Positions 2,271 to 17,421 of a DNA stretch of 64,000 nucleotides are shown here, piece after piece (within the stretch, counting starts at the first letter, position 1; each line of letters begins with the position of its first letter). Origin of the DNA: Thiobacillus sp. (GTDB taxonomy: Bacteria; Pseudomonadota; Gammaproteobacteria; Burkholderiales; Thiobacillaceae); assembly GCA_030692355.1 (NCBI GenBank), contig JAUYCF010000039.1, positions 1-64,000 of the forward strand. The letters run 5' to 3'. The notes beneath the pieces are model-generated. The model searched no databases and was not told the origin of the DNA. It worked only from the letters and a program-made list of their open reading frames with translations. Both the position numbers and the translations under genes were made by a program.

Positions 2271-2926
2271 TGCAGCGTGCCCCGCATCATTCCGGACACC
2301 TGGTGCGCCGCAGCGATGGAATGGCGGGTGGTGGTGAGCTCCACGATCACCTGTTCGCCCTCGAAGACACGGAGGCTGACGTAGGAACCCTTAAGAATGG
2401 CGGCGCTGTTGTCCTGGATGCGCTCAGTCAGGATCGTGGCGAGGTGTTGCGCCTGGCGGGCTTTCTCGGTGTGGGCGCCCTTGGCTTCCATATCGAGGTC
2501 GTCCATGGCGTCCGTGTCGAGGTTGCTCGTTGACGCACCGGGGTCCGCGGTCTCTTCCGACTGGAAGGCCCGCGCGTAGCTGCGGGCAACCCGGGTCAGT
2601 GTCTTGGTGGACTTGACGTCATTACTGAGGAACTCAGTAACCGTGCGCTTCGCGCGCATGGTGGCGATCATCAGCGCGGTCTCGCGTCCGGACGAGGTAT
2701 CCGCGCTCAGGCTGGCCGTTCCCTTGCTGGTGATCTTCACCCAGTTTCCCTGCTCGTCGAACACCAGGTTCAGCGTGCCGCTGGAGCCGTCAAAAGCTGA
2801 TTCTGCAAGCCGTGAGGCACCCGCGTCAGGTTTGATGGCCGGGTCGGGATGATTCGCCTGCTTGCTTCCGGGGGAGGAACAGGCGGCCAAGGCCAGGGCC
2901 AGAATGGTCACGATCAGTGCTTTCAT
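2267..2926 (-). CDS. Lipoprotein of unknown function
   Basis: 219 residues. The N terminus MKALIVTILALALAACSSPG is a type II signal peptide with lipobox LAAC (lipidated Cys16). The Ser after Cys suggests outer-membrane sorting under the Lol +2 rule. The mature part is polar, with an alpha-helical region rich in Thr/Arg/Glu (about 80-180), and I recognise no domain. It overlaps the upstream TPR-like gene and the downstream secreted-protein gene by 4 nt each. This links it tightly to one operon that starts with the 58-residue gene behind operator A. Confidence 0.75.
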   Translation of the reverse strand: MKALIVTILALALAACSSPGSKQANHPDPAIKPDAGASRLAESAFDGSSGTLNLVFDEQGNWVKITSKGTASLSADTSSGRETALMIATMRAKRTVTEFLSNDVKSTKTLTRVARSYARAFQSEETADPGASTSNLDTDAMDDLDMEAKGAHTEKARQAQHLATILTERIQDNSAAILKGSYVSLRVFEGEQVIVELTTTRHSIAAAHQVSGMMRGTLQ

Positions 2927-3292: not shown

Positions 3293-3469
3293 TTATCGCC
3301 CGAGCACGCGTGAGGCGCTGGACGCGCGGTAGCCGGGAAACTGGGCAGCCGCCGTGCGTTTGGCCGTCTCATTGTCGGGCGCGCGAACTTCGATGCGAAG
3401 GTTCGACAACGGCCCGGCGCTCGACTCGACGCGGACGAGGAAGACGGAATAGGTGTGCATGAATGCCAT
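3293..3469 (-). CDS. Small protein, 58 aa, first gene of operon
   Basis: Starts at ATG 3469 with an AGGAG ribosome-binding site 6 nt upstream and ends in TAA at 3293, four bases before the next ATG. The sequence MAFMHTYSVFLVRVESSAGP continues into a short strand-helix unit containing NETAKRTAAAQFPGY. This resembles small uncharacterised proteins often found on plasmids and integrated elements, where Asn-Glu-Thr-Ala-Lys and a Pro-Gly-Tyr turn are conserved. Basic (pI high), no membrane segment. Its position directly after operator A makes it the leader gene of the unit. Function unknown. Confidence 0.6.
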   Translation of the reverse strand: MAFMHTYSVFLVRVESSAGPLSNLRIEVRAPDNETAKRTAAAQFPGYRASSASRVLGR

Positions 3470-3558
3470 GTGTGTCTCCTGATGAACAAGGTTTCTGGGG
3501 CACGCGAGGCCAGGCCATTCTGCTGGCGTTCACGATGGAGACAGCATGACAAGCGGGT

Positions 3559-3573
3559 CGACAGCATGTGTCG
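3559..3573 (-). promoter_or_regulatory. Shared island operator, copy A
   Basis: Read toward the gene at 3469: CGACACATGCTGTCG. One of seven copies of CGAC(A/T)CAT-N2-TGTCG; 89 nt lie between it and the 58-aa gene start. Confidence 0.7.
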
Positions 3574-3690
3574 CGGATGCCTTTCAATTGACAACAAGGC
3601 AGACCGGTTTTTCTTAACGTTTGAAATCCAGTGGCGTCCCGGGCAGCGGCCTGGTGCCTTGGGACACGCCCATGCGATTACGATCACGCC

Positions 3691-3728
3691 AAGAAAAATG
3701 GCCAGCTTGGTGTTGTCCAAACTGGCCA
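3691..3728 (-). terminator. Rho-independent terminator after the first Sel1 gene
   Basis: On the minus strand a 12-bp stem (TGGCCAGTTTGG with CCAAGCTGGCCA, one G-T pair) and a 6-nt loop are followed directly by TTTTTCTT. It lies 70 nt after the stop of the Sel1 gene at 3798 and before operator A. This separates the Sel1 unit from the envelope operon and shows operator A must serve its own promoter. Confidence 0.75.
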
Positions 3729-3797
3729 CTCGAATTGAATTGCCTCAGGAAGATCGCGGGAATCTGGAACTGTGCTCGCTCTCTGAGGCGTTATCGA

Positions 3798-4778
3798 TCA
3801 TTCCTTTAGTTCGTCCGGGGAATGAGGGTCTTCAGCCCCCAGTTCCCGAAGCTTTTCGGGCGCCATTTCCTCACCATGTTCTGCCGCAAGGCGAAACCAC
3901 CTGATCGCCTCTGCCTTGTCCTGGGGAACGCCATGGCCCGACTCATACTTCAAGCCCAGTGCAAACTCGGCGTAAGGATGACACGCCTCAGCGGCCTTCA
4001 GGTACCAGGCAATCTCTTCGCGTTCGTTCTTGGGTAGCCCGCCGGCGCCTTTGTGGTACATGGTGCCGAGGTAATACTGGGCATCGGGGTGCCATTGCTC
4101 AGCTGCCTGACGGAACCAGGCCGCTTTCTGAGTCTCGTCTTTCGGGACGCCTGTCCCTCGCGAATACATCAAGCCGAGCTCATACTGCGCGTTGGGTTCA
4201 CCCTGCTCAGCCGCTTTTCGAAACCAGTTGGCTGCTTCAACCATGTTCTTGGGAACACCTGTTCCAACTTGATACATCCAGCCCAGATGTACCTGTGCGA
4301 ATGCGACATGTGCGCCATTTGTGCTTTCGGCTGCCTTGAGAATCCAGGCGGCAGCCTCCTTGTCATCCTGAGAAACGCCTCGCCCCTCCTGATGCTTCAA
4401 TCCAATCGCGAACTGCGACTCCTGATGGCCTTGCTCCGCGGCCTTCCTGAACCACTTGGCAGCTATGGAATCATCTTGTTCATCCCGGGAAACGGAGCTG
4501 ATTGAAACGCCGTACAAGTTCCCTCGCTCGTACCATAGCCCCAAGTCGTGCTGGCTATTGGTGTGGCCCTGCTCCGCGGCTTTGCGCAGCCACTTCAGCG
4601 CTTCAGTCGCATTGGCCAATTCATCCATATCGAAGTTAGTGAAGCACGCGTGGCCCAGCGCGTACTGTGCGTCGGGATCACCCCGCTCGGCATCTGCCCG
4701 ATGTTTGGCGGTGAATTCGTCATCGATGTAAACACTACCTGGCGTTGTCTCGCTCGTCTTCGAGTTGTCGTTTGCCAT
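3798..4778 (-). CDS. Sel1-repeat protein
   Basis: 326 residues, no signal peptide, hence probably cytoplasmic. From about residue 28 to 310 it is built of roughly seven Sel1-like repeats (about 36 residues each, core A-x-x-W-x-x-x-A-A-E-x-G-x-x-x-A-Q-x-x-L-G and G-x-G-V-P-x-D). Examples are AANWFRKAAEQGEPNAQYEL and AIRWFRLAAEHGEE. Sel1 repeats form alpha-solenoids that scaffold protein complexes; here the partner is unknown. Operator B lies 66 nt upstream and a strong terminator follows, so it is a single-gene unit. It is a paralogue of the next Sel1 gene at 5036-5974, and a third decayed copy lies at 10955. Confidence 0.9.
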   Translation of the reverse strand: MANDNSKTSETTPGSVYIDDEFTAKHRADAERGDPDAQYALGHACFTNFDMDELANATEALKWLRKAAEQGHTNSQHDLGLWYERGNLYGVSISSVSRDEQDDSIAAKWFRKAAEQGHQESQFAIGLKHQEGRGVSQDDKEAAAWILKAAESTNGAHVAFAQVHLGWMYQVGTGVPKNMVEAANWFRKAAEQGEPNAQYELGLMYSRGTGVPKDETQKAAWFRQAAEQWHPDAQYYLGTMYHKGAGGLPKNEREEIAWYLKAAEACHPYAEFALGLKYESGHGVPQDKAEAIRWFRLAAEHGEEMAPEKLRELGAEDPHSPDELKE

Positions 4779-4825
4779 TTGTTTTCTCCGGAGTCTGGTG
4801 TTCAGTTGGGACGCTCCAACCGAAA

Positions 4826-4950
4826 TCAGGATATAAAGAAAGACGACAAATTGTGTCGACTTACCCCGGGCGGGGCGTTCTCGAAGAAATGCGCTGATTT
4901 CGACATCGCCAGGGTGTCTCGTTCGTGGTGGCTGAGTAGGGCTTGCCTCA
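4826..4950 (-). pseudogene. Remnant of a second DUF2779 gene (3' end only)
   Basis: The minus strand encodes ALLSHHERDTLAMSKSAHFF followed by ENAPPG. It aligns with the C terminus of the intact DUF2779 protein at 6120-7616 (SLLSYCERDTLAMVRLAHFF). The DNA also aligns (CTCGAAGAAATGCGC is shared exactly). Nothing upstream of this tail remains. The remnant sits in front of a Sel1 gene exactly as the intact DUF2779 gene sits in front of the other Sel1 gene, so a [DUF2779 - operator - Sel1] block was duplicated and one DUF2779 copy was lost. Confidence 0.75.
4844..4858 (-). promoter_or_regulatory. Shared island operator, copy B
   Basis: Read toward the Sel1 gene at 4778: CGACACAATTTGTCG, 65 nt from its start. 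It lies in DNA that is a decayed duplicate of the 3' end of the DUF2779 gene, as does copy C in the intact gene. Confidence 0.7.
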
Positions 4951-5035
4951 GCCTAATGAATCTTGAGTTTTTCCCCATTGAACAGTTGTTCAGGTCGTCG
5001 ATTGGCCGGAGTGTTAAGCGCATGAGGGACGTGCC

Positions 5036-5974
5036 TTAATGCACCCCCCCTTCGGCCTCGACGTCTACGAGATGGTGCGCAGACTCCGCGGCCGCCCTCC
5101 GACGCCATTTCTGGGATTCGGCTCGGTCAGGAGGGATGCCCCATCCATATTTGTACAAGTCCGCCAGATACATCGCCCAGACCTCACAGGACTCTGCCGC
5201 CTTGCGATAGGCGGTGAGCATTTCCTTAAGTGGGACGCCACGCGCTTTGCAGGTTTTCTGGAGATCACTTCCCTCCGGCTCGAAATTCGCGTCCCGTGAC
5301 TCGGCCTCGACATACCATTCCGCGGCGACCGCAGTGTCCTTGGGGATGCCAATTCCTTTTGCGTATCGATCGGCAATATCCCAGGGGGCTTTCGGATCAC
5401 CTTTCTCGGCAGCTTTGAAGAGCCAGGCCACCGCGGTTTCGTCGTTCTTGGGAATGCCTCTACCTTCTTCGTACATTTTCGCGATTTGGTAGGCGGCTTC
5501 CCCTGCGGTTAAGTCCCACCCCTCAAGGCTATCCGCATTGTTGAACGCTTTCAGGTACCAGCTCATTGCTTCGGCTGGATCCTTTTCTATGGATTGATCG
5601 CCCAACTTGCACTGAGCAAGTGGATTTCCAAGGTCGGCAGCCTCGCGATACCTACCGAGGTGCATCATCGCCCCTATATGGCCTTGTGCAGCGGCCTTGC
5701 TGAACCAGACATCTCCTTCAGCTTGATCCTTGGCAACAGTCCCTACCCCGTGCCGGTAATAGAGACCTAACCTGTATTGGGCTATAACATGACCTTGCTC
5801 CGCGGCTTTCAGGAACCACCTTAGGGCCGCTGTCCTGCGCTCTTTCGTATCCGTTCCTGGGGAGTAGCTTTCATACAGCCGCGCCAGTTGGAACTGCGCT
5901 TCGGCATCTCCCTGCTCGGCTGCGGGGCGGCATTTGGCTTCCTGTTCGGCGCGCTTTTCTGCGTAGTGCATCAT
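5036..5974 (-). CDS. Sel1-repeat protein, second copy
   Basis: 312 residues from ATG 5974 (a double ATG), preceded by GGGAG at 6 nt. No signal peptide. Sel1 repeats cover about residues 18-290 (AALRWFLKAAEQGHVIAQYR, AVAWLFKAAEKGDPKA and others), with a longer irregular linker around residues 190-250. Paralogous to the product of 3798-4778 but clearly diverged. It lies 145 nt after the DUF2779 stop, and operator C sits at the very end of the DUF2779 gene. It may therefore be transcribed both from its own promoter and by read-through from the AAA-DUF2779 operon. Confidence 0.9.
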   Translation of the reverse strand: MMHYAEKRAEQEAKCRPAAEQGDAEAQFQLARLYESYSPGTDTKERRTAALRWFLKAAEQGHVIAQYRLGLYYRHGVGTVAKDQAEGDVWFSKAAAQGHIGAMMHLGRYREAADLGNPLAQCKLGDQSIEKDPAEAMSWYLKAFNNADSLEGWDLTAGEAAYQIAKMYEEGRGIPKNDETAVAWLFKAAEKGDPKAPWDIADRYAKGIGIPKDTAVAAEWYVEAESRDANFEPEGSDLQKTCKARGVPLKEMLTAYRKAAESCEVWAMYLADLYKYGWGIPPDRAESQKWRRRAAAESAHHLVDVEAEGGVH

Positions 5975-6119
5975 GTGCTCCCTTGGGTGGTGTGTGTGAG
6001 ATAGTCGAGTTTGCGGATCAATCAATTAGTGCGCCCGATTTCACTCTCAGAGCGCCAACGGCGGGTTTCAGGTCAGATCCTTCGGCCTTATATTGGGTAA
6101 TCGAGAGCGTGAGTGTCTC

Positions 6120-7616
6120 TCATAACTCGACAATATGTGTCGACGGATTCTGGGCCGCGCCGCACTCGAAGAAATGCGCCAGCCTCACCATGGCCAGCGT
6201 GTCGCGTTCGCAATAGCTGAGCAGGGATTCACGCAGGCTGGTTCGGCGCGCATCCGGCAAGTCCGGATTCATCAGCTCTGCAAAAACATGCTGGGCCTGA
6301 ACACCATTACGGACTTCGAGATCGCCGTAGGCCAGCTCAGGGGCGATGGTGGGCAGAACATCCTTGATCTTCCATGAGCCATGCATGTCTGGGTGGTAAT
6401 AGTGCGCACGGGCGATTGGCAGCAGGTCGACGATCCGGTCGGCCGCCGCGTTGAGTGCGGGGGCGAGGTCGGGGAAGCACAGCGCCAGGTGCCGGATGTG
6501 GCTGCGCTCCGTGCCGGCGTTGTAGACAAGGATGGGTCCAGTCTGGCCCAGCACATCGACCAGCGACTCGGCGAAGGCACGGCGCGGATCGTCGGTGCCA
6601 AGGGCCAAGAAGGCCTTGTGCTCGATTGTTCCATTGCGAGTTTCAATGTGGCACGACCACTGGAACGGGATCTGTTGATAAGGCCGTGTGTTCGCCCAGA
6701 CGGGGACGGCAGGGTTGGCCGTTTCAAAGTCGATGTAATAGCGCGGGTAGGCAAGGTGCTGAATTTGCTCCTGTGCTTCCGGGCTGAGTTCATACCGCCC
6801 ACTCGTGCACACGCGCTGGATGCGTTGATGGAGCGGGTTTTTCAACCGGAAGGCCGGGACCTCACGCATGTCGTCATACCCCTCAATGCGCAGATCGATG
6901 GCGAGTTCATCGGCCCAGGGCAGGATTTCCACGGGGTAGTAGGCTTTTGACCCCGGCACGCGTTTTGGCGCGCAGCTGTGGAAGAACGGGCAGCGGTTGG
7001 GTTTCTCACACTGGTCACCGGTATCGATCAGGGGCTCCTTGCTGGCGAGGGTGTCTCGTGCCGCATTCACCCAGCCTGGGATCTGCGATTCAAAGCTATG
7101 AGTGGCGACGGTCACGTCGACGTGCTTCAAAAGGCCGTCGTAGTTGCCGTCGCCCCGGTAGGTGAAGGATTTGTCGATGATAGCGACCTCGACGCGTGTG
7201 ACCGGGATGCCGGCCTTTCGTGCTACCCAGGCCTGGATCGCGGCATCGTCCAAATAATTGGGTTTGACCTCGGTGGCGGATTTGACCTCGACCATGCGGT
7301 AACCGACGGCGTCTGGCAGCAGCAGGTCAGCGCGCACCAGCACGCCATCGGTCTCGAAGGTGGCTTCGAAGATTGGGCGTGGCGCACCAGAGAGGACGCG
7401 CTTTGTCTCTGCAAGTTGTTGTGCTGCGGAAGGCGCATCGATCAGCACACCATCCGGATAGAAGGTGCGGGCGGCCTCGCCGATCTGATTGCCGATGTCG
7501 AAGCGCATCTGCATGGCAGGGTCGATTTCCGCGAGCTGAGGGCGGTAGGTATGCAGCCACAGGCGGCGCGGACATTGCCGGTGGTACTGAATGCGCGACT
7601 TGGACAATCCACTCAT
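6120..7616 (-). CDS. DUF2779 protein: Cas4-like Fe-S nuclease fused to DEDD exonuclease
   Basis: 498 residues from ATG 7616 (GAGGT at 7 nt). Two nuclease modules are visible. Residues 10-220 are a PD-(D/E)XK fold of the RecB/Cas4 type: Glu84, Asp97 (VRADLLL), Glu110-Val-Lys112. Four cysteines, Cys15 (QCPRRLW), Cys203, Cys209 and Cys215, are placed as in the Cas4/AddB 4Fe-4S cluster. Residues 290-485 match a DnaQ/RNase H-like exonuclease: YYIDFETA (Asp296, Glu298), VYNAGTE, VDLLP, and CERDTLAM with Asp472. Family members carrying DUF2779 are uncharacterised as far as I know. Its gene lies 17 nt after the double-AAA+ ATPase gene, so the two probably form one DNA- or RNA-processing machine. Confidence 0.85.
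   Translation of the reverse strand: MSGLSKSRIQYHRQCPRRLWLHTYRPQLAEIDPAMQMRFDIGNQIGEAARTFYPDGVLIDAPSAAQQLAETKRVLSGAPRPIFEATFETDGVLVRADLLLPDAVGYRMVEVKSATEVKPNYLDDAAIQAWVARKAGIPVTRVEVAIIDKSFTYRGDGNYDGLLKHVDVTVATHSFESQIPGWVNAARDTLASKEPLIDTGDQCEKPNRCPFFHSCAPKRVPGSKAYYPVEILPWADELAIDLRIEGYDDMREVPAFRLKNPLHQRIQRVCTSGRYELSPEAQEQIQHLAYPRYYIDFETANPAVPVWANTRPYQQIPFQWSCHIETRNGTIEHKAFLALGTDDPRRAFAESLVDVLGQTGPILVYNAGTERSHIRHLALCFPDLAPALNAAADRIVDLLPIARAHYYHPDMHGSWKIKDVLPTIAPELAYGDLEVRNGVQAQHVFAELMNPDLPDARRTSLRESLLSYCERDTLAMVRLAHFFECGAAQNPSTHIVEL
6128..6142 (-). promoter_or_regulatory. Shared island operator, copy C, inside the DUF2779 3' end
   Basis: Read toward the Sel1 gene at 5974: CGACACATATTGTCG. It overlaps the last codons of the DUF2779 gene (encoding STHIVEL and stop) and lies 153 nt before the Sel1 start. 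Confidence 0.7.
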
Positions 7617-7633
7617 GTCTGACCTCGATTCGA

Positions 7634-9733
7634 TTAGATGAAACCAACGGCCTTGCGGCTGTCCTTTTTGATGCTGCATTCCGCTTCCAGCGCGGCGATC
7701 AGCGCGGAAACGCTGGCGACCGGGCGGAAGCGGTGCTGGCGCGCAACAGCCGCGAAATCGCCCGGGGTCAGGGTCGTGAGTCGTCCCACAGCGGTGCGGG
7801 TAGATTCATCCGGGACCAGCAGGCCGAGCGACTCGCAGAGCACCTCGAACAGGTCCCAGGCCTGGGCAGGGCGCAGGTAGCCAAACTTCACCTTGAGGTC
7901 GAAGCGGCGCAGCGCCGCCTGGTCGAGTCCGTCCATCAGGTTGGTCGAGGCGATGAACACCCCGGAGAAAGCCTCCATCTGCGTCAGCATCTCGTTGACG
8001 GCCGTCACCTCCCACGAGCGCTGGGCACGCGTGCGGTCCTGCAGGAAGCTGTCCACCTCGTCGAGCAGCAGTACGGCACCGTCGGACTCGGCCTCGCGGA
8101 ATACCCGTGCCAGATTGCGTTCGGTCTGTCCCACGTAGGGCGAGACGATGTCCGACACGCGCTTGGCGTGCAGCGGCACATCGAGCCGGGTGGCGAGCCA
8201 GCGGCCGAACGCAGTTTTGCCGGTGCCGGGCGGGCCATACAGGCAGATGCGGCCCGCCTTGGCCTGCATGATTCCGGCTGAGACTTCAGCCAGGTCGACA
8301 TCGGCGGCGATGTGGCGCGGGTCATAGCTCTCCGGCAGCGCGGCCGCCTCACCGGTCATCAACCCACCGTGGCCCTGCGCTTCCAGTGTGCTCTCGATCA
8401 GCTGTTCGAGGATCGCGCTGGTTCGGTTGGCCGGCAGGACGTCCTGAATGGAACGCACCACACGGGCCGCGCGCTGCACCACGGCAGGCGCCAGCCCGTG
8501 TGCCTCGACCAGGCGGTTGCGGGTGGTCGCATTGATCAGGTCGCCGCAGGCTTCGTCCAGCAGGCGTTCACGGTGGCGGCCGCGGGGCAGCGGCATCTCA
8601 AGCACGACGTCGAAACGGCGCAGGAAAGCTGGGTCCATGCACTCCACATTGTTCGACAGCCAGATGACCGGCGCCGTGTTGGTTTCGAGCAGGCGGTTCA
8701 TCCAGGCTTTCTGCGAGCGGGCAGAGCCTTTCTCACGCAGGTGAGTCCAGCCGCCGTCGAACACGTCCTCGGCTTCATCGAACAGAATCATGGCGCGGCG
8801 CTGGCGCAGCATGCTCTGGGCGGCGCGCAGCGCGCGAAGTCTGCCGTAGCCGTTGATGCCGTCGCCGGCCTCGTTCTGCGACGAGATCTCGAACAGGTCG
8901 CAGCCGAGTTCGCGTGCCAGCGCAAGGGACAGCTGGGTCTTGCCGGTTCCGGGTGCGCCGTGAATGAAGACATTGACCCCGTTGTTCTTGTGTTCGAGGG
9001 AGCGCTCGAGATAGGGGTGCAGCACGTCGAGCGTGTTTTGCACATGGCTGAAGTCGCCGAGCGTAAGTTCGGCCTTCGCTGCCGGAGCGACGATGTCGCG
9101 CAGCAGTTCGAACGGATCCCCATCGAAATATCGCAAGCGGTCGGACGTCTCGTCGGAAAGCATCGTAATCTTGGCTGCGAGACTGCGTGCCACGCTCGGA
9201 TCGATCTTGATGAAACAGGATTCGGACAACGAACCCTTGGGGGAGACGCTGTGGCGAATCAGATCGCGGTCAAACCCCAGCACGCCGCTCAGTACATCGA
9301 TGAGACGAGCCGTGGGGACGCTCCCGATCGTGCTGCACGCCACCTCCAGGCGAGGGTCGGTTTCCATCAGCACCGCGAAGGCAATCACGGCCTTGTCGAC
9401 GTTGTTCCACCCCAGCAGTTCGCTATAGCGTTCGATATTCTTCGCCAGGACCTCGGGAATCGCGTTCACGCTGCGGCGACGTTCTGCCTGGCCATGCTTC
9501 TTACGCAGCTCCGCCATGGCAGGCTTAATGTCGAAGTTTCCTTCAAGGGACGGAAGACCCAGGTAATTCGCGAGATGGTCATGCTGGTAACCGTAGGAAA
9601 CGATCAATTCGCGGCTTCCCCCTAGCGGGACAAGCAGCCGAAGGATCCAGAGGCGGATCAGGGCCTCGTAGGATTTGTCCGAAGCGTCGGGTGAGGGGAA
9701 GGGAATCGATTTCTTACGCCGGGTAATAGCCAT
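7634..9733 (-). CDS. Double AAA+ ATPase
   Basis: 699 residues from ATG 9733 with GGAG 9 nt upstream. An N-terminal helical region of about 240 residues without a known domain precedes two AAA+ modules. Module 1: Walker A GAPGTGKT (259-266), Walker B ILFDE (316-320), arginine-finger-like RRFD (372). Module 2: Walker A GPPGTGKT (500-507), Walker B LLLDE (555-559), sensor-1 STN (596-598), RRFD (609). The tandem layout recalls Cdc48/ClpA-type remodelers; the target is unknown. The short gap to the DUF2779 nuclease gene suggests ATP-driven loading or control of that nuclease. Operator D is 46 nt upstream, so this is the first gene of its unit. Confidence 0.9.
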   Translation of the reverse strand: MAITRRKKSIPFPSPDASDKSYEALIRLWILRLLVPLGGSRELIVSYGYQHDHLANYLGLPSLEGNFDIKPAMAELRKKHGQAERRRSVNAIPEVLAKNIERYSELLGWNNVDKAVIAFAVLMETDPRLEVACSTIGSVPTARLIDVLSGVLGFDRDLIRHSVSPKGSLSESCFIKIDPSVARSLAAKITMLSDETSDRLRYFDGDPFELLRDIVAPAAKAELTLGDFSHVQNTLDVLHPYLERSLEHKNNGVNVFIHGAPGTGKTQLSLALARELGCDLFEISSQNEAGDGINGYGRLRALRAAQSMLRQRRAMILFDEAEDVFDGGWTHLREKGSARSQKAWMNRLLETNTAPVIWLSNNVECMDPAFLRRFDVVLEMPLPRGRHRERLLDEACGDLINATTRNRLVEAHGLAPAVVQRAARVVRSIQDVLPANRTSAILEQLIESTLEAQGHGGLMTGEAAALPESYDPRHIAADVDLAEVSAGIMQAKAGRICLYGPPGTGKTAFGRWLATRLDVPLHAKRVSDIVSPYVGQTERNLARVFREAESDGAVLLLDEVDSFLQDRTRAQRSWEVTAVNEMLTQMEAFSGVFIASTNLMDGLDQAALRRFDLKVKFGYLRPAQAWDLFEVLCESLGLLVPDESTRTAVGRLTTLTPGDFAAVARQHRFRPVASVSALIAALEAECSIKKDSRKAVGFI

Positions 9734-9778
9734 CGTGATGATCTCCGTATATGTTTGTTGGCATTGTCGAGACGCCGT

Positions 9779-9793
9779 CGACAACATACGTCG
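9779..9793 (-). promoter_or_regulatory. Shared island operator, copy D
   Basis: Read toward the AAA+ gene at 9733: CGACGTATGTTGTCG, the most divergent copy (outer CGAC...TGTCG kept). 45 nt from the start codon. Confidence 0.65.
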
Positions 9794-9916
9794 ACGGGGG
9801 GCAGTCAGGTGTCCATGCCTCACGGTTGGTGTGCCGAAAGGCCCGAAATGAATCCAACCGAAAATCACCCACAATCGAGTAGGCGAATTTCCGGTGGGGT
9901 TTTCACCCCGAAAACC

Positions 9917-10672
9917 TTAGGGACGGACTTCGGCCACCTGTTCGCTGAAACGGGTTCCAACTTGACGGAGGTGATCCGTCCGGTCGACCGGTTCAATTTT
10001 GGAACCCAAAAACATCAGGTTCAGATGGGAGGGGGGAACCAGAACTCGAAGCGGCTCGTTGTCCGGATCATTGAGTTCATCTCTCAAATTCATCAGGAGG
10101 CGACCGAGATGGTTGTATCCACAACGGCAATATCCATCTTTCGATGTAAACAGTCCCCAATAGGATTCTTTCTTGAGCGCCTTCAAGACAATTTCACGAT
10201 CTTCCGTACTGCGAAGCAGTTCACCAAATTGAACCCAGTTGTTGATGAGTTTGGCACGCAGACAGAAATCCATGACTTCGAGCTTTACTTGATTCCAGTC
10301 GGGGCGAATTTTCGCGTCATGTGCTTTTTTCAGCGCCAGTTTTTTAGCCGATTCTTCCGCTTTTTCAGAATACGGTTTGATCTGGGATGTGACCGCGAAC
10401 TTCTGTTGAGGGACACGACGGGACAGAGCCGTTTGCACCCCAACCAGCACCTTGTTCGAAGCGATCTTGACCGCCTCAGCAGGGGTTCCAGCCTTCAGGA
10501 TGCGGCCCTGGATTTCGGGGTGATCCGAAAATTTCAGTGCTTGATACAGGTGTTCACTACTCGTAACGCTGACGCCATTGATTAAAAGTGGGTAACCTTC
10601 AGCGAGATTGGACAGGCCACCAAACTCATCTTCAGATTTAAGAAAAGAAACAACGCGATTTTGAATGTTCAT
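9917..10672 (-). CDS. NADAR (YbiA-like) domain protein
   Basis: 251 residues from ATG 10672. Residues 1-150 match the NADAR/DUF1768 fold: FGGLSNLAEGYPLLINGV, then SSEHLYQALKF (the conserved Glu-His pair), RGR-like basic stretch, and later NNWVQFGELLRSTEDREIV. E. coli YbiA is an N-glycosidase acting on riboflavin intermediates, and other NADAR proteins remove ADP-ribose from nucleic acid. Which reaction applies here is not visible. The C-terminal 70 residues contain a Cys pair (GYCRCGYNHLGRLL) also seen in family members. It is a single-gene unit behind operator E. In this setting a role in ADP-ribose or nucleotide-based defence is plausible but inferred. Confidence 0.8.
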   Translation of the reverse strand: MNIQNRVVSFLKSEDEFGGLSNLAEGYPLLINGVSVTSSEHLYQALKFSDHPEIQGRILKAGTPAEAVKIASNKVLVGVQTALSRRVPQQKFAVTSQIKPYSEKAEESAKKLALKKAHDAKIRPDWNQVKLEVMDFCLRAKLINNWVQFGELLRSTEDREIVLKALKKESYWGLFTSKDGYCRCGYNHLGRLLMNLRDELNDPDNEPLRVLVPPSHLNLMFLGSKIEPVDRTDHLRQVGTRFSEQVAEVRP

Positions 10673-10821
10673 AGTTTTAACCTCGGGTAGTGGAAAACAG
10701 AATCAAAGCGATCCGCGGGCCTTGTGAGCCCACCTTTCGCGGCTTGAAACAACAAAAACATTCCCAACAATTTTTAAAGAGCGGTGTGGCGTGAAGCAGG
10801 TGGGTACTCTAGGGATGTCGT

Positions 10822-10836
10822 CGACAATATGAGTCG
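10822..10836 (-). promoter_or_regulatory. Shared island operator, copy E
   Basis: Read toward the NADAR gene at 10672: CGACTCATATTGTCG, 149 nt upstream of its start. The interval contains an AT-rich stretch (CTTTAAAAATTG) that could hold a promoter. Confidence 0.7.
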
Positions 10837-10954
10837 GCGCGCCACGCGGGGCAGATCAGGCGGTATTGGGGAAGGTGTGGGAGGTAGGGTGCCCGCCTAT
10901 CGTGCAGACATCCTGGGTGATACGTTCATCGGAGGGCAGCCCCTCCGATGACGC

Positions 10955-11265
10955 TCAATGGAGAATTCGCCTGCTGACAGAGTCGCGGTCGAGGAGATCA
11001 ATCCTGTCACGGGTGCGGGGATCGAGCGCGCCCGAACGCAGAAGCCGGTCGAGCCGGATCTGGGCATCTTCGTCCCCCCAGTCGGCGGCCATGCCGAGCC
11101 ATTCTGCGGCCTCGTCCAGGTTCCTGGGCGTGACTTGACCCAGTTCGAGCATCTCACCGAGCAATGCCTGTGCGCCACGGTATCCGTTTTCGGCACTCAC
11201 GCGGATCCAGTAGCAGGCCTGCTCGTCATCCTGCGGCACGCCCCGAGCGTACGCAGGACTGCGTG
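10955..11265 (-). pseudogene. Sel1-repeat protein remnant
   Basis: The minus-strand frame encodes YARGVPQDDEQACYWIRVSA and continues through a second repeat (EAAEWLGMAADWGDEDAQIR) to a stop at 10955. This is the C-terminal two and a half Sel1 repeats of a protein like those at 3798 and 5036. No start or earlier repeat exists upstream; the sequence becomes unrelated at about 11265, next to the Fic promoter. It is a truncated third paralogue, probably cut when the Fic gene or its flank was acquired. Confidence 0.75.
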
Positions 11266-11516
11266 AAGCAGATGCGAATCTTCCCAATGACGTTGACAGT
11301 TTGTATCCGCGTGGTGCTGCCACGCAGATGGCTGATCGTGAAGGGGGTGGTGGGCGCCATTGGGGAGGGACCAGGTCTTGCGGGCGCGAGCCGACAAATC
11401 CTTCAAGTAGCCTAAAAAAACGTCATTTCAGCAAGAGGTGCGGTGGTATTCGTACAGGCTGCCGTGTGAACCAGCCGGAATCGCGTGCTTTTCGTGGGGG
11501 GCGAAGGAAGGCCGAC

Positions 11517-11578
11517 TTGACAAATAAGATATGTTTCGTACATTAAGCGATGAAGCAATATAAAATACGTACAATATT
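11517..11578 (+). promoter_or_regulatory. Promoter and likely operator of the AbiEi-Fic gene
   Basis: TTGACA (11517-11522), 16-nt spacer, TACATT (11539-11544). The following 35 bp carry the repeated word CGTACATT / CGTACAAT and an AT-rich inverted repeat (CAATAT...AATATT), a usual layout for autoregulated toxin-antitoxin genes. The rest of 11266-11516 holds nothing I recognise. No copy of the shared island operator is present. Confidence 0.5.
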
Positions 11579-11581
11579 TGG

Positions 11582-13105
11582 ATGTGCGCAATGAATATCC
11601 AGCAAAAAACCGACAAACCGCTTCCCGAAGTCGTTTTCAGCTCCGGCGATGCCACCCATGCCCAGCGCGTCCGGCGCCTGGCCCGGGGGGGCGTGCTGCG
11701 CAGGATCTACAGCGGGGTTTTCACAAGCAATCTTGAAAGCCCGTTGGAGAACATCGTCCTGCGGAACTGGGCAGAGATCGTCAGCAATCTTCTGCTGGGT
11801 GGGGTTGTGAGCTTCCGTTCGGCTGCCGTAGGCAAGCCGGAAAACGGCTGGCTGTATGTCACGCGAGGAAAGACGCCGCGCACGATCGAGTTGCCTGGAT
11901 TGACGGTCCGCGTGATCCCCGGCGCCGGTGCTTTCCAGGGGGCAGGGGTGAGCGATACGCCATACAAGGGGATTTTCTTTTCCAGCGAGCCGCGTTGGTT
12001 GCTCGAAAACATGGCCACTGGCCGAGGCGTTGCCTCGCGGGTGCTTTCCCAGGAGGCCGTTGAAACCTATCTCGACAAGGTTCTTCTCATCCGCGGCGAG
12101 CACAAGCTCAATGTCCTGCGCGACAACTGCCGTGGACTTGCCGCTGCGCTCGGCATGCCGAAGGAGTTTTCCCGCCTGGACAAGATCATCGGCGCGCTGC
12201 TCGGCACCCAGCAGCAGCGCCGGCTGCGCAGTCCTCAGGCGATCGCGCGCGTGGCCGGTCGTCCCTATGACCCCGGTAGGCTCGAGTTGTTCGAGGCGCT
12301 GTTCTCACACTTGAAGGCGAACGTCATGCCGGAGGTTCCAGATCGGGCGTTTACTGGCCAGGCGTTGGAAAACTTCGCCTTTTACGAAGCCTATTTCTCG
12401 AACTTCATCGAGGGCACCACCTTCCTCGTATCCGAGGCGGAGCAGATCGTCTTTGAGGGCAAGATCATTCTTAATCGTACCGAGGACTCGCACGATGTAT
12501 TGGGCAATTTCCAGGCCGCGTCGCAGGCGCCCTGGCGCAACACGCCAGCCCGGACGGCAGACGAGTTCCTCGCCTGGCTGAAATCGGTCAACGCGCTGGT
12601 GATGAAATCGCGCCCGGACAAACGCCCCGGCGAGTGGAAGGACAAGCCGAATCAAGCAGGTGCCACCCTGTTTGTCGATCCAACCCTGGTGCCCGGCACA
12701 TTGCGGGAAGGTTTCGCGCGAATCGCGGCCTTGGAAGACCCGTTTGCGCGGGCGCTGATGACAATGTTCGTGGTCTCCGAGGTCCACCCGTTTCTGGACG
12801 GCAACGGCCGTACCGCACGCCTGGCGATGAACGCCGAGCTAACCGCCGGCGGCTTGTCGCGCATCATTGTCCCGACGGTGTACCGGGAAGATTACATGCT
12901 GCCCCTCAAGGCGCTGTCCCATCAGAAGGATCCAGTCGCTTACTTGCGCGCAATGAGCCGCATCCAGCAATGGACCGCTGCCTTCGACTACAGCGTCCCA
13001 CGCAACGTGCTCACTGTGGCTTTGAAGACTTGCAACGCCTTCGAAGAAGACCTGCGGAATTTCAAGCTGACTTTCCCGGAGGCGCCGTCGATCATGTCAC
13101 GCTAG
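11582..13105 (+). CDS. Fic-family protein with AbiEi-like N-terminal domain
   Basis: 507 residues; a second ATG three codons in (11591) is equally possible. The first 90 residues (THAQRVRRLARGGVLRRIYS) match the winged-helix N terminus of type IV AbiEi antitoxins. The C-terminal half is a Fic domain with the complete motif HPFLDGNGRTAR (402-413), so transfer of a nucleotide monophosphate to a hydroxyl side chain is expected. SNFIEG (273-278) fits the inhibitory (S/T)xxxE(G/N) motif placed before the catalytic helix (class II, self-inhibited). A DNA-binding antitoxin-like domain fused to a toxin-like enzyme suggests a self-regulating single-gene module. It is the only plus-strand gene in the first 16 kb and could be the regulator of the island, though it lacks the shared operator. 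Confidence 0.85.
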   Translation: MCAMNIQQKTDKPLPEVVFSSGDATHAQRVRRLARGGVLRRIYSGVFTSNLESPLENIVLRNWAEIVSNLLLGGVVSFRSAAVGKPENGWLYVTRGKTPRTIELPGLTVRVIPGAGAFQGAGVSDTPYKGIFFSSEPRWLLENMATGRGVASRVLSQEAVETYLDKVLLIRGEHKLNVLRDNCRGLAAALGMPKEFSRLDKIIGALLGTQQQRRLRSPQAIARVAGRPYDPGRLELFEALFSHLKANVMPEVPDRAFTGQALENFAFYEAYFSNFIEGTTFLVSEAEQIVFEGKIILNRTEDSHDVLGNFQAASQAPWRNTPARTADEFLAWLKSVNALVMKSRPDKRPGEWKDKPNQAGATLFVDPTLVPGTLREGFARIAALEDPFARALMTMFVVSEVHPFLDGNGRTARLAMNAELTAGGLSRIIVPTVYREDYMLPLKALSHQKDPVAYLRAMSRIQQWTAAFDYSVPRNVLTVALKTCNAFEEDLRNFKLTFPEAPSIMSR

Positions 13106-13212
13106 AAAGGCGAGGATCGACGGGGTAGGGGTGAGTAGCGGAAAACCCCCAGGCAGGCAATGGGGCTTGATCCAGATGACGTGCGTTGACGAACCGGTGG
13201 ACGCTGCCTCGG

Positions 13213-14040
13213 CTATTTGGCCGTCCCCGCCATCAAGCTGACCGCGAAGCCCACCTCACGGTGGGGCAGGTGGCCGACCATGAGCAGGTAGTCGTCATCC
13301 CTGACTCCGCGAAGGGCATGCTTGAATGCCTGAATGCCCCAGTGGATTTCTTTGAGCCGGACATCCGGCCCGGTGTGGAACAACAGCAGAAAAGTGTCGC
13401 ACGCGCCGAGGTCGCAGCGTGTTGCCAGCGACTGCACGGCACGCTCGGCGCCTACGATTGCCCGTCCTTCCCCAATGGCATGAACCACCGTGAACTGGCT
13501 CGCCCGGTTCTCGGTGCAGGCCTGGATCGCGAAAGCATCCAGGCAGATGAGGCCGCGGTTGAGCATGGCGTCCAGATAGACGCGCATGGCCCATGCCCAT
13601 TGGGCATCGCGTGACCGGTGTGGCGGCAGGCGTATCACCGATGTCCATTCCGGCCTGATCGCGGTCGTGGCGTCGACCACGACGGTGCAGTGTCCTCCCA
13701 GCTGAACCAGCTGCGCGGCAAGCCGGATGTCTTGATTAGTGAGCGCGCCGCTGATGGCGATGATGCAGGGCAGGCGGCCAGCCAGCGGCGGCACGTGTTC
13801 GAGCGGCTGGAGGACTGCCGTCAGCGTTCCCAGTGTTTTCATCCAGTTGGTGCCTGGCAGGGATTGCGCATAGTCTGCGAGGCGCTCGGCCAGCACGGGC
13901 GCGCCTTTGCCTAGCACGAGAAGCACGGCCGCATCCTGGCAACCGGGGTCTTCGTCAGGAAAGCGGAAGAGTATGGCCGACGGTTGGGCATGTCGCCGCA
14001 TGAGTTTTCTGGTTGGTGGCGAGAGCAGTTCCTCGTTCAA
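13213..14040 (-). CDS. Degenerate FtsZ/tubulin-like protein
   Basis: 275 residues. The C-terminal part aligns with the FtsZ C-terminal domain: GEGRAIVGAERAVQSLATRC, then DLGACDTFLLLFHTGPDVRL and EIHWGIQAF, ending in a strand pair like the FtsZ core. GLICLDAFAIQ (163-173) sits where FtsZ has the T7 loop (GLMNVDFADV), keeping one Asp but not the second. CIIAISGALTNQDIRLAAQL occupies the place of the nucleotide-binding strand, with GALTNQD instead of GGGTGTG. GTP binding and hydrolysis are therefore doubtful. The gene overlaps the PDZ membrane protein gene by 4 nt, suggesting a membrane-tethered partner. The alignment is by eye; FtsZ homology is an inference. Confidence 0.5.
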   Translation of the reverse strand: MNEELLSPPTRKLMRRHAQPSAILFRFPDEDPGCQDAAVLLVLGKGAPVLAERLADYAQSLPGTNWMKTLGTLTAVLQPLEHVPPLAGRLPCIIAISGALTNQDIRLAAQLVQLGGHCTVVVDATTAIRPEWTSVIRLPPHRSRDAQWAWAMRVYLDAMLNRGLICLDAFAIQACTENRASQFTVVHAIGEGRAIVGAERAVQSLATRCDLGACDTFLLLFHTGPDVRLKEIHWGIQAFKHALRGVRDDDYLLMVGHLPHREVGFAVSLMAGTAK

Positions 14041-16103
14041 GGCAGTCTCCCCACGATCCAGAATCGGGACGAGACGACGGCGTGATTCTCATCGAAAGAC
14101 GGGGTTCCCAGTGCGCGCGGATCGTTCCGCGCAGCGTCAAACAAGGCTCTCGGCATGATTGGGGGATAGGCCGGCTGCGCGTAGAACGCGAGGCGCGACC
14201 ATTCGTCCGGATCCACTTCACCTTGGCGATGGGCTTCCGGCAGGCCGATCTCCTGATCGTCATGAAACAGCAGGGCGCTTGCCTTGAGGTTGGGACTGAT
14301 ATGGACGACCAGCCTGCCGTCGGGGCACGCGTGCGCCTTGCATGCCGTGTAGGTCAGGCCACCGTCGGCAGTGGCCTCGGCCGGGGTCCCGACCGTGAGC
14401 ATGTCCATGAGCGGCTGGTAGGATTGGCCCAGTGCGGCTCTGAGCGCGGTATCGATCTCCGGGTGTGCTTCCAGGATTTCGGTCGGGTAACGGCCAACCA
14501 GGCTGGCGAGCAGTTCCAGGATGGCTGTGGAAGTGCCGGCTTCGTTATGGAACGGGATTGCGCTGTGATCAGTCTGGGCGTGGTAGAGCGGCCCGGCTTG
14601 CTGCCCCGCCACGTGGGCAGGGCCGATCTTCCCGGTCAGGTCGAAGGCCAGCGCAAAGCCGTTGCCCCGCACCATGAGCCAGCGCCGGCCGTCCAGTGAT
14701 GCGTCCAGGAAACGTCCATCCTCCCAGCGGGCCGTGTCGTAGCCATAGCCTTTGTAGGTAGCCAGTTTGCGCTGATATCCGACGTCCCAGAAGGTCACGG
14801 TCCAGTCGTCGAGGATGAAGTTGCGCACGGCGTAATACGCGCGCTTGAACCAGCCGTCGTATTGCTCGTCCGGCTGGTAGGGGCGGGTGGCCAGGGCAAG
14901 AACGCGTCCGTCGGCAGACAGCCACCATTTGTCATGGGCCTGCCCCGGATCAAGCGCGAAGGTCTTGCCGGTGCCTGACTCGGAAAATGCAAACTTTCCG
15001 TCGGCATCACTGGTCATGCGGTAGCGCACTTCGGGCGTGGGTGCCGTGTTGTGCTGGTCGGGAAGGATCGACTGGTCCTCGGGCTCGATCCGTGTGCTGA
15101 ATCCATTGGCCCAACTGGCGTAGGAGCGCTGGCTGCGTGAATCGAAGTAAACCTCGCGCAGGCTGCTGTTCGCAGAGGGCTCGATACCGAGCCAGCGCTT
15201 GTCGGTGCTGTTGTGCCACGCCACGAACCGGCCCGATTTCAGGTCGACCAGCGCGGCGACGTACGGGGTGCGTGCAATCTTGTCGCCCAGGCCGAAGTAG
15301 TGTTCCGGTGTCGGCTTCACCATGGCGAGCCAGCGGCCGTCCTGCGAGACGGCGTACTTGCCTTCAACCTCGACGCAGCACACCTTCTGGTCGGCCTCGC
15401 TCTTCGCGGCAGCAAGCGGCTGGTAAATGTTGTACATCATCCCGACGGGGCCGATCAGCCCGAAAACCAGTACCCCGAGCAGGCCGGTCAATGCGCCGTT
15501 GATGCCGGCCCCGACGTATTCTCGGCCGCCCTTTTGGAATTCGCCGTAAACACCTGCTGCCGCGCCTCCGATTGCGATTTCTGTTTTGTGGTCCCTGAGG
15601 ATCAGCCACATGACTGGGGTCATGAACAGGGTCACAAGGAGAAAGAAGCCCGCCCACTTGAACCAGGACAACCAGTCGCCGGGTACCGTTCCGGTAACCA
15701 CGGCGGGCAGTTCCGCGCCAGACTGGATGGGCAGGGCGTCCCGTTTCAGGGTTCTGGGTTTCCCGGAGCCATCCTGCAAGGTGATCGAAAAGGCTTTACC
15801 AGCAGGAAACTCGCCACCCAGCCTCTCCAGATCGTACTGGCTGGCGACCGGCTTGCCGTTGAATCCGGTGATCAGCTCGCCCGGCTGGATGCCCAGGCCG
15901 GCGGCTACGCAGCCCTCGCGTACCTGTGCAATCAGCACGCCTGTATGGTTGCTGTCGGGTGATTTCCAGTTGATGGTGTGGATTCCCAGCTCGCTGCATG
16001 GTGCCTGCGCCATGGCAGGCAGACCGAACAGCGCCAGCAGGCAAAACCCGATGGTGGCTCGTACTCTTGAGTGAGTCAGAAAACGAAATAATGCGAATGA
16101 CAT
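14037..16103 (-). CDS. Membrane-anchored PDZ protein with large C-terminal domain
   Basis: 688 residues. Signal peptide 1-34 (LFGLPAMAQA then Cys36), PDZ-like domain about 55-115 (VREGCVAAGLGIQPGELITG, typical of HtrA/RseP-type peptide binding), transmembrane helices about 150-169 and 200-224. The remaining 460 residues contain repeated SxDGRxLA-type blades (AVSQDGRWLAM, LSADGRVLALA, ASLDGRRWLMV), which suggests a beta-propeller. Two helices after a cleaved signal would put the PDZ and the propeller on the same, periplasmic side; if the signal is an uncleaved anchor, the topology inverts. Operator F lies 52 nt upstream. It is the first gene of a two-gene unit with the FtsZ-like gene. No relative with known function is recognised. 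Confidence 0.7.
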   Translation of the reverse strand: MSFALFRFLTHSRVRATIGFCLLALFGLPAMAQAPCSELGIHTINWKSPDSNHTGVLIAQVREGCVAAGLGIQPGELITGFNGKPVASQYDLERLGGEFPAGKAFSITLQDGSGKPRTLKRDALPIQSGAELPAVVTGTVPGDWLSWFKWAGFFLLVTLFMTPVMWLILRDHKTEIAIGGAAAGVYGEFQKGGREYVGAGINGALTGLLGVLVFGLIGPVGMMYNIYQPLAAAKSEADQKVCCVEVEGKYAVSQDGRWLAMVKPTPEHYFGLGDKIARTPYVAALVDLKSGRFVAWHNSTDKRWLGIEPSANSSLREVYFDSRSQRSYASWANGFSTRIEPEDQSILPDQHNTAPTPEVRYRMTSDADGKFAFSESGTGKTFALDPGQAHDKWWLSADGRVLALATRPYQPDEQYDGWFKRAYYAVRNFILDDWTVTFWDVGYQRKLATYKGYGYDTARWEDGRFLDASLDGRRWLMVRGNGFALAFDLTGKIGPAHVAGQQAGPLYHAQTDHSAIPFHNEAGTSTAILELLASLVGRYPTEILEAHPEIDTALRAALGQSYQPLMDMLTVGTPAEATADGGLTYTACKAHACPDGRLVVHISPNLKASALLFHDDQEIGLPEAHRQGEVDPDEWSRLAFYAQPAYPPIMPRALFDAARNDPRALGTPSFDENHAVVSSRFWIVGRLP

Positions 16104-16154
16104 CGGCCCCTCCCTGAATGATCCTTATCAATTGACGTATTAAAAAGGATGAAT

Positions 16155-16169
16155 CGACAGGATGAGTCG
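16155..16169 (-). promoter_or_regulatory. Shared island operator, copy F
   Basis: Read toward the PDZ gene at 16103: CGACTCATCCTGTCG, 51 nt from the start codon. Copy G lies 54 bp away in the opposite orientation. Confidence 0.7.
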
Positions 16170-16223
16170 AGAGGCCTGTGGGCCTGCATGGTGGCGCTTG
16201 AGTGGGCGGGGGAGAAATCTCTG

Positions 16224-16238
16224 CGACTCATGCTGTCG
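16224..16238 (+). promoter_or_regulatory. Shared island operator, copy G
   Basis: CGACTCATGCTGTCG on the plus strand, 22 nt before the ATG at 16261. It is the only plus-strand copy and serves the only plus-strand unit that lies divergent to a controlled unit. Confidence 0.7.
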
Positions 16239-16260
16239 ACGGCCTGATTAGGCTGGCGAC

Positions 16261-16530
16261 ATGAACACAAAACATCCCCCTTGGGTGCGTGTGCTGCCTT
16301 CCAACCAGATCGGCCACGACTTTGTTATCGGTGATTTGCACGGCTGCTTCGATCTGCCCGACCGCTTGCTCGATCACGTTCGCTTCGATCCGGCTTGCGA
16401 CCGGATGTTTTCTGTCGGAGACCTGATCGATCGTGGTCCAGATTCGTTGCGCAGTTTGGGGTTTCTGGGTGCGCCCTGGTTTTATGCGATGAAGGGTACG
16501 CGCGAACACATGCTGCTCAAGTATTTTTGA
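16261..16530 (+). pseudogene. Truncated PrpA/PP1-like metallophosphatase
   Basis: 89 residues. FVIGDLHGCFD and SVGDLIDRGPDS are the first two metal-binding blocks of bacterial serine/threonine phosphatases of the PrpA/ApaH type. The third block reads GTREHM, where the family has GNHE/GNHD, so the metal-binding Asn is replaced. The frame stops at TGA 16530, whereas relatives run to roughly 200-250 residues and need two further histidines. It is thus probably inactive or a gene fragment. It is the first reading frame after operator G and is followed after 42 nt by an intact hypothetical gene. The phosphatase start may now act only as a leader. Confidence 0.65.
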
Positions 16531-16572: not shown

Positions 16573-17421
16573 ATGAACGACTTTGACGATTACGACGATG
16601 GGTTCGACGAAATCATGGTCTCGCGACTTTCCGGCGCCGGTCTGCCCGAGATGAGGCTCGACGCCTACAGGAGCTGGATAGCGGATGTGGCACCGCCAAC
16701 CGACAGCCAGATCGAGGCTTTCGCGGACTACGCTGCCAGCGCCCGCAGTTGGTACAAGCATCTGCCGCTGAATCCGCCCGGCGCCTTGTTCCAGTTATAC
16801 ATCGATCCCCATGCTGGAATGGACCGCGTAGTCCTCGCGTCGGGTGAGATCAGTATGTTGGAACGCACGGATGAAACCGAAGCATTCCATTATTCCTGGC
16901 GGACCACGGCCGACTATCGAGAGCGCTTCGGTTGCCTGGCGTTTGCCTGTGGCAAAGGCTCTGCACTGTTTCAGGATGCGATGCTGGGCGATGAACCCGT
17001 TCTGGTGGATGGGAACTGCTTGTACCCGGAACTCCGGATTTCAAAGGCAGTGGCAGAGCGGCCACCCGAAGAAATACTCGAAGCCGGCGCCTGCGGGCTG
17101 ACAGCGCTCGTTCATCCGCACGCCACCGTGGACTTCCTGACCAGCCAGCTCGCATCCAGGAAACGGTCGGTGCCAGAGAGAGGTGAGGGGGAAAGCGGGA
17201 CCTGGGCGGAGATTCTGGAATGGTGGCGCAAAGGGCAGGAGGTCCGGAATGCAAAAGGCGAGCCTGCATACCAGGCAGGTGACGACCCGGTATTGGCCGC
17301 CCTGGTCGAGCAGGAAAAGGTACGCCAGCATCGCGCCATGGTAGAGGCCATGCAACGCATGCGCAGCGTGGCTTTCCCGGGGTCATCCCCTCAAAAAGCA
17401 GAGCGAAAGGACCGGCAATGA
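16573..17421 (+). CDS. Conserved-looking hypothetical protein
   Basis: 282 residues from ATG 16573 with GGAG 7 nt upstream. The first 30 residues are very acidic (NDFDDYDDGFDE). The middle contains SARSWYKHLPLNPPGALFQL and YIDPHAGMDR, a pattern I associate with widespread uncharacterised bacterial proteins, then a Cys-rich stretch (FGCLAFACGKG). No signal peptide or membrane helix. It overlaps the next small gene by 4 nt (ATGA), so the two are coupled. Placed behind operator G, it belongs to the regulated set. Function unknown. Confidence 0.75.
   Translation: MNDFDDYDDGFDEIMVSRLSGAGLPEMRLDAYRSWIADVAPPTDSQIEAFADYAASARSWYKHLPLNPPGALFQLYIDPHAGMDRVVLASGEISMLERTDETEAFHYSWRTTADYRERFGCLAFACGKGSALFQDAMLGDEPVLVDGNCLYPELRISKAVAERPPEEILEAGACGLTALVHPHATVDFLTSQLASRKRSVPERGEGESGTWAEILEWWRKGQEVRNAKGEPAYQAGDDPVLAALVEQEKVRQHRAMVEAMQRMRSVAFPGSSPQKAERKDRQ

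Follow-up and report, generated by a model that had tools for sequence, protein, structure and literature searches.

Which regulator acts on the genes of the island at the start of contig JAUYCF010000039.1 of Thiobacillus sp. (assembly GCA_030692355.1)? The question is raised by a 15-bp palindromic element that occurs seven times between 3.5 and 16.3 kb of the stretch analysed here (positions 1 to 64,000 of the contig, hereafter the window), each copy oriented toward a gene, among them genes encoding a double-AAA ATPase and proteins with DUF2779, Sel1, NADAR and PDZ domains (Table 1). We found that the element has a second part, a -10-like box at a fixed distance, that site and box together are confined to the island within this genome, and that they recur in relatives, where they track with a gene for a WYL-domain protein resembling DriD of Caulobacter crescentus. 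In our judgement the element is probably a DriD-type operator, at which a homodimeric WYL-WCX protein triggered by single-stranded DNA (ssDNA) would activate the island promoters together.

The element and its -10-like box

All seven sites in the window consist of the half-sites CGAC and GTCG spaced 7 bp. Their coordinates had been given correctly in the original prediction, and its range of 22 to 153 nt to the gene start agrees with the distances to the start codon measured here (89, 65, 153, 45, 149, 51 and 22 nt, in the order of Table 1). No other copy had been noticed by eye in the 64 kb, and the core CGAC-N7-GTCG has seven matches in the window, all seven inside the island. The asymmetric CAT triplet that was said to mark every copy is found in five of the seven sites, the exceptions being those at 4844 (CGACACAATTTGTCG) and 9779 (CGACGTATGTTGTCG). 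With 2 mismatches allowed, the full motif gave 9 matches in the window against a mean of 3.0 in shuffled sequences, and 2 of 100 shuffles reached 9.

Two of the sites, at 4844 and 6128, are not independent of each other, for they fall in copies of one sequence (72.5% identity over 102 bp) that comes from the 3' end of the DUF2779 gene. This 3' end, with the operator embedded in it, is found at 4844-4944 and at 6128-6229, ahead of each of the two Sel1 genes. The duplication copied the promoter along.

The second part of the element, which had been missed before, is a hexamer of the form xAxxxT that starts exactly 10 nt after the site on the gene side in six of the seven cases, with at most one of the seven sites showing it at any other offset tested. 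The core palindrome CGACN7GTCG occurs at 74 places in the genome (116 for a backward control) and is by itself neither rare nor exclusive to the island; the island-exclusive feature is the core together with the box at its fixed distance. The combined pattern CGACNNANNNTGTCG-N11/12-ANNNT has six matches genome-wide, all in the island, and none in the control; the site at 16155 is absent from these six because its box reads TTTAAT. Likewise, the complete assembly of 3.27 Mb contains the exact motif CGACWCATNNTGTCG five times, always inside the island (0 for the backward-pattern control). The genome-wide scan that had been proposed as a test, run here with exact patterns and not with a matrix, did not refute the prediction.

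No clear -35 hexamer was seen 16-18 nt before the -10 boxes in a comparison with TTGACA, either in the window or in the 30 promoters of relatives described below: the best match averaged 2.4 of 6 positions in the window (2.2 in the control) and 1.9 of 6 in the relatives (2.4 in the control). The sites occupy the -35 region, where the match to the -35 consensus is poor, and keep a constant spacing to a weak -10 box. For operator 7 the predicted start point lies near 16261, the ATG itself, which would yield a leaderless message. Two other readings of the repeat were set aside: an extracytoplasmic function (ECF) sigma promoter with TGTCGA as its -35, rejected by eye as no conserved CGTC-type -10 accompanies it, and a LexA-type box, rejected on the basis of known consensus sequences.

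Conservation of the element in relatives

The exact motif was searched in 117 genomes of the family and found in nine, the window's own included. Among the other eight, only G111, of another genus, has homologues of island genes within 1.5 kb of the motif. The remaining seven were treated as chance: G052, G063, G082 and G106 have a nearly identical stretch in common, and no island gene is present at that place in G018, G028 and G058. In G111 the exact motif lies between divergent genes for PDZ and p282 homologues, with PDZ, p275, AAA and A268 running in one direction. When degenerate half-sites were allowed, it showed a divergent pair at 17358 (-) and 17425 (+) and a further site ahead of the AAA gene. 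In G105, TGACTCATATTGTCG and TGTCACATATTGTCG are present in the two matching promoters, of which only TGACTCATATTGTCG is among the matrix matches listed. The spacing of the divergent pair (PDZ versus the phosphatase/p282 side) is 69 bp in the window, 67 bp in G111 and 93 bp in G105.

G111 carries two separate islands (L107 and L029-L030), each with its own AAA gene, DriD-like WYL gene and sites. The first is followed by what looks by eye like a DISARM-like helicase/DUF1998 pair.

The element also accompanies a relative of the left part of the island. In G069, which belongs to the window's genus, a WYL gene stands directly ahead of the order site-Sel1a-site-DUF5131-site-A219-A353, and four blocks of 116 to 1303 bp align with the window between 1.27 and 4.73 kb at 66-84% DNA identity. 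DUF5131 occupies the place that other small open reading frames (ORFs) have in the window.

For a broader view we used the double-AAA ATPase as anchor, which is found in 34 of 399 genomes of the order (E<=1e-80); a corresponding scan of genome contigs with the PDZ protein gave no match. From the genome-contig scan with the AAA protein the best 80 loci were taken, of which 75 were scored and five with less than 200 bp upstream were dropped. The strict pattern CGAC-N7-GTCG was found within 300 bp upstream of the AAA gene in 29 of the 75 loci, against a mean of 0.48 and a maximum of 4 in 200 dinucleotide shuffles. These strict sites, 30 in 29 of the best 80 loci, give a profile of about tGCGAC-A-Y-A-T/A-T-N-TGTCGCA, followed by 10 or 11 nt and a box such as GACAAT: xAxxxT is found at N10 in 15 of the 30, at N11 in 12 and at neither in three, and in at most four of the 30 at any other tested offset or on the far side. 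The directionality claimed for the site was borne out in this way, mainly by the -10 box, which is always on the gene side; the palindrome itself is mildly asymmetric in the relatives, with a pyrimidine at position 6 in 26 of 30 and no preference at position 10.

A matrix that includes the -10 box was trained on the 30 strict AAA-promoter sites (two of which score only 10.9 and 14.4), with mononucleotide shuffles as null. At a score of 18 or more it recovered 38 of the 75 AAA loci and none in 20 shuffles; nine of these 38 loci, and four plasmid loci, lie outside the training set. On 167 kb of control loci it gave two matches of 18 or more, both just ahead of AAA homologues. In the plasmid set, 16 records have a match to the WYL protein discussed below; four were examined, and each of them has its best-scoring element immediately ahead of the AAA or WYL gene. 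The expectation that homologous islands carry the element has therefore a mixed, on the whole favourable outcome, 38 of the 75 AAA loci reaching the threshold and 37 falling short. The prediction of one regulator for one multi-operon system is supported by the confinement of the element to the island in this genome and by its recurrence ahead of homologous genes in relatives.

A linked WYL protein as the candidate regulator

The element is associated with a particular gene, that of a candidate regulator. We clustered the ORFs of 23 sources picked for an AAA or PDZ homologue (21 loci, G111 and the window). The recurrent families besides AAA were DUF2779 (9/23 sources) and WYL-domain proteins (11/23 sources). 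Pfam detected WYL in all four tested proteins of the latter family and WCX in three of the four; an HTH-WYL-WCX architecture results when the helix-turn-helix (HTH) part, which rests on the structure model, is included. Members of this family are present in G069, G105 and G111.

AAA loci with this WYL gene carry the element more often than those without: 28/38 versus 10/37 by matrix (Fisher p=7e-5) and 22/38 versus 7/37 by the strict pattern (p=8e-4). Among loci L113-L192, all 15 recorded as Campylobacterota and all four recorded as Acinetobacter lack both this WYL gene and the element at the thresholds used, and their AAA ATPase seems to be under other control. We also found elements ahead of the WYL genes themselves, in four distinct loci (five matches, two on the same contig). 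Two plasmid records (L228 and L230) have the WYL gene and no AAA match at E<=1e-60, and still carry the element ahead of the WYL operon.

An AlphaFold model of the Castellaniella WYL protein (mean predicted local distance difference test score 87.4, predicted template modelling score 0.63) was compared by Foldseek with the PDB. The seven best matches are all full-length DriD chains, aligned over 319-330 columns at 21-22% identity, and PafBC, CapW and BrxR rank after them.

The window's genome has a WYL gene of another kind at L111 (G000:C103:1-750), cut by the contig start. Its product shares 42-49% identity with a second WYL subfamily (L104:418 and L107:3224), and this subfamily was left out of alignments A1 and A3. 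The protein encoded beside L111 reads by eye like a Cas5, and the WYL gene L112 looks BrxR/CapW-like.

Comparison with known WYL systems and alternative readings

DriD has the published consensus ATACGAC(X)7GTCGTAT; the site spans the -35, and its distance to the -10 boxes, which are poor, is constant (PMC12340889). The core CGAC(X)7GTCG of its regulon in C. crescentus (didA, bapE, recJ, dnaG and driD) is the same as that of the island, and the promoters are alike in having the site over the -35, a fixed distance to a weak -10 and a poor -35. In our reading of the printed promoters, xAxxxT lies at N11 in the didA site and at N9, N11 and N12 in the driD site; the operator part of the driD site scores 16.8 with the AAA-promoter matrix. 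The systems differ in the operator flanks (GCGAC..GTCGCA in the relatives versus ATACGAC..GTCGTAT), in the protein (about 21% identity between the linked WYL protein and DriD in the structural alignment) and in the targets, which here are AAA, DUF2779, Sel1, NADAR, PDZ, FtsZ-like, Sir2, SbcD and other genes of a variable island and not recJ or dnaG, no search for didA, bapE, recJ and dnaG having been made.

SiwR of Mycobacterium smegmatis activates as a WYL homodimer from an imperfect palindrome of 19 bp that lies between the -10 and -35 regions (PMC10693628), and differs by its GGA motif at -26 and its DinB-like targets. PafBC, a WYL-WCX activator of mycobacteria that acts in the same part of the promoter by sigma adaptation, inserts between sigma domain 4 and the promoter at the place where the -35 is usually read (PMC11804915), but it is a heterodimer with a non-palindromic site (PMC6789036). 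BrxR, of bacteriophage exclusion (BREX) systems, and CapW, of cyclic oligonucleotide-based anti-phage signalling systems (CBASS), are WYL regulators of defence systems and are a weaker structural match than DriD.

By analogy with DriD, a homodimeric HTH-WYL-WCX factor would bind the CGAC and GTCG half-sites across the place of the -35 box. Its WYL domains would bind ssDNA arising from DNA damage or from phage or plasmid replication, and the ssDNA-bound factor would recruit the RNA polymerase with the housekeeping sigma factor to a promoter whose weak -10 box lies 10 nt downstream (10-11 nt in relatives). The seven promoters would in this way co-activate the AAA-DUF2779, NADAR, two Sel1, PDZ-p275, phosphatase-p282 and A219-A353 units.

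The original prediction noted that an overlap with a -35 box would suit a repressor. In such a reading the same WYL regulator and operator would act by blocking the -35 region until released by a nucleic-acid ligand, as for BrxR and CapW. The site does cover the -35 region, WYL proteins of the BrxR family are repressors of defence islands (PMC9122601), and the AAA-WYL block of plasmids adjoins helicase/SNF2-type genes. A repressor, however, needs a promoter that is active without it, and with weak -10 boxes and no clear -35 hexamer to block, the evidence for such a promoter is poor. Moreover, BrxR has as its first site a pair of 11-bp repeats with a 5-bp spacer downstream of the -10 (PMC9122601), whereas the island sites, CGAC-N7-GTCG, lie upstream of the -10, and the nearest structures are those of the activator DriD. 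We therefore regard repression as unlikely; the geometry is that of DriD and not that of BrxR.

Several observations weigh against activation by a DriD-type regulator. The window's own assembly (G000) has no match to this WYL family, only two other WYL proteins, and the window holds no remnant of such a gene. The contig starts in what reads by eye as the end of a transposase gene, so that the regulator gene may be part of unassembled sequence, unless the regulon is orphaned; the set of this genome may be an orphan regulon served from elsewhere. The association with the WYL gene is incomplete: 10 of the 38 loci with it are under the matrix threshold (six of these score 13-18), 10 of the 37 loci without it carry the element (six of these on contigs of 3.5-7.2 kb), and L105 and L106 have a degenerate element ahead of AAA in spite of lacking this WYL gene in about 20 kb. 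When loci without the WYL gene were required to extend at least 5 kb to each side, the strict contrast was reduced to 22/38 versus 3/13 (p=0.05). The matrix gave the didA site only 4.6 and missed bapE. In the window itself, a chance site at 50757 (13.3) outscored the island sites at 16155 (12.3) and 10822 (12.1), so that with the matrix from relatives two of the seven do not rise above chance; the other five reach 15.8-23.3, and seven matches of 9 or more, the best 15.2, came from three mononucleotide shuffles of the window. Finally, the structural match to DriD is modest (TM-scores 0.42-0.44, full-length root-mean-square deviation 16-17 A), probably owing to a different domain arrangement, and over the N-terminal half of the WYL protein, HTH included, there is no match to DriD by sequence, the profile match covering WYL-WCX only.

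The missing WYL gene of the window's assembly and the element in AAA loci without a visible WYL gene would also suit a regulator of another kind that binds the site, with the WYL gene merely a neighbour. This is quite improbable, given that the core is identical to that of the published DriD consensus and that the element precedes WYL genes in four loci and the WYL operon in the plasmid records L228 and L230. That the repeats mark recombination or cassette boundaries of mobile elements and not promoters is hardly credible, for although two of the sites, those at 4844 and 6128, belong to a duplication that includes a remnant of the DUF2779 3' end, all seven sites are oriented toward a gene at a fixed distance from the -10 box, and the divergent PDZ and phosphatase/p282 pair is kept in relatives.

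Content of the putative regulon and possible wider occurrence

A census with the matrix gave 143 matches of 18 or more in 64 of the 100 loci scanned, a count in which palindromes may be included on both strands and some loci are on the same contigs (4 of 19 tested overlap the best 80 loci). The first ORF downstream was AAA in 44 cases, DUF2779 in six, WYL in five and FtsZ-like in four; seven matches had none. Single or few cases concerned a DnaQ-like exonuclease, Sir2, a cpYpsA SLOG protein, SbcD, a DSP phosphatase, a histone-deacetylase-like protein, a 5'-nucleotidase, an SNF2 helicase, Sel1 and PDZ proteins, and many others are unnamed. Of 20 census proteins analysed with Pfam, 10 had no family. 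Together with the NADAR protein of the window, this cargo points to nucleic-acid and NAD/ADP-ribose chemistry, which would fit functions in stress or conflict. On two plasmids, the genes that come after the AAA-WYL block are a helicase/SNF2 gene and others that are phospholipase-D-like or unnamed.

The association with a DriD-type operator would tie several uncharacterised genes (those for the double-AAA ATPase, DUF2779, FtsZ-like, Sel1 and PDZ proteins and p282) to a regulator class of known structure and signal, and predicts that the island genes are expressed upon build-up of ssDNA. The operator-plus-(-10) pattern seems sufficiently specific for listing members of such regulons in raw genomes. 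In the literature searched we found no link between DriD-type operators and such islands. It is possible, and we put this forward only tentatively, that a DriD-type ssDNA-responsive switch has spread far beyond Caulobacter to become the common control module of mobile, modular stress or defence islands in beta- and gammaproteobacteria and Verrucomicrobia. If so, any gene gaining the 31-bp operator-plus-(-10) promoter would join the regulon, which would then give the cell an additional SOS-like response, portable and with interchangeable cargo.

Features of the island

Table 1. Putative DriD-type operators, -10-like boxes and genes of the island, in window coordinates
Feature	Position	Strand	Remarks
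Operator 1	3559..3573	-	CGACACATGCTGTCG
Operator 2	4844..4858	-	CGACACAATTTGTCG; within duplicated DUF2779 3'-end remnant
Operator 3	6128..6142	-	CGACACATATTGTCG; within 3' end of DUF2779 gene
Operator 4	9779..9793	-	CGACGTATGTTGTCG; ahead of AAA-DUF2779
Operator 5	10822..10836	-	CGACTCATATTGTCG; ahead of NADAR
Operator 6	16155..16169	-	CGACTCATCCTGTCG; ahead of PDZ-p275
Operator 7	16224..16238	+	CGACTCATGCTGTCG; ahead of truncated phosphatase ORF and p282
-10-like box, operator 1	3543..3548	-	CATGCT; 10 nt after operator
-10-like box, operator 2	4828..4833	-	TATCCT
-10-like box, operator 3	6112..6117	-	GACACT
-10-like box, operator 4	9763..9768	-	GACAAT
-10-like box, operator 5	10806..10811	-	TAGAGT
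-10-like box, operator 6	16139..16144	-	TTTAAT; position 2 not A
-10-like box, operator 7	16249..16254	+	TAGGCT
A353	1209..2270	-	353 aa; no Pfam family; homologue in G069 island
A219	2267..2926	-	219 aa; no Pfam family; lipoprotein-like start (by eye); homologue in G069 island
Unnamed ORF	3293..3469	-	58 aa; first ORF after operator 1
Sel1-repeat protein	3798..4778	-	326 aa; G069 homologue is the gene after the WYL gene
Sel1-repeat protein	5036..5974	-	312 aa from ATG 5974
DUF2779 protein	6120..7616	-	498 aa from ATG 7616 (chosen start); weak Cas4-like match
Double-AAA ATPase	7634..9733	-	699 aa; anchor gene for searches in relatives
NADAR protein	9917..10672	-	251 aa
p275	13213..14040	-	275 aa; no Pfam family; homologues in G105 and both G111 islands
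PDZ protein	14037..16103	-	688 aa; PDZ match under curated cut-off
Truncated metallophosphatase-like ORF	16261..16530	+	89 aa
p282	16573..17421	+	282 aa; no Pfam family; kept in G105 and G111

At the place of the 89-aa phosphatase-like ORF of the window, G105 has a metallophosphatase of 285 aa (L061:11962-12819). A Fic-domain gene (11582-13105) lies within the island on the opposite strand, without an operator ahead of it. At the other end, positions 1-290 read by eye as the 3' end of a transposase gene, where the island seems to be cut by an assembly break.

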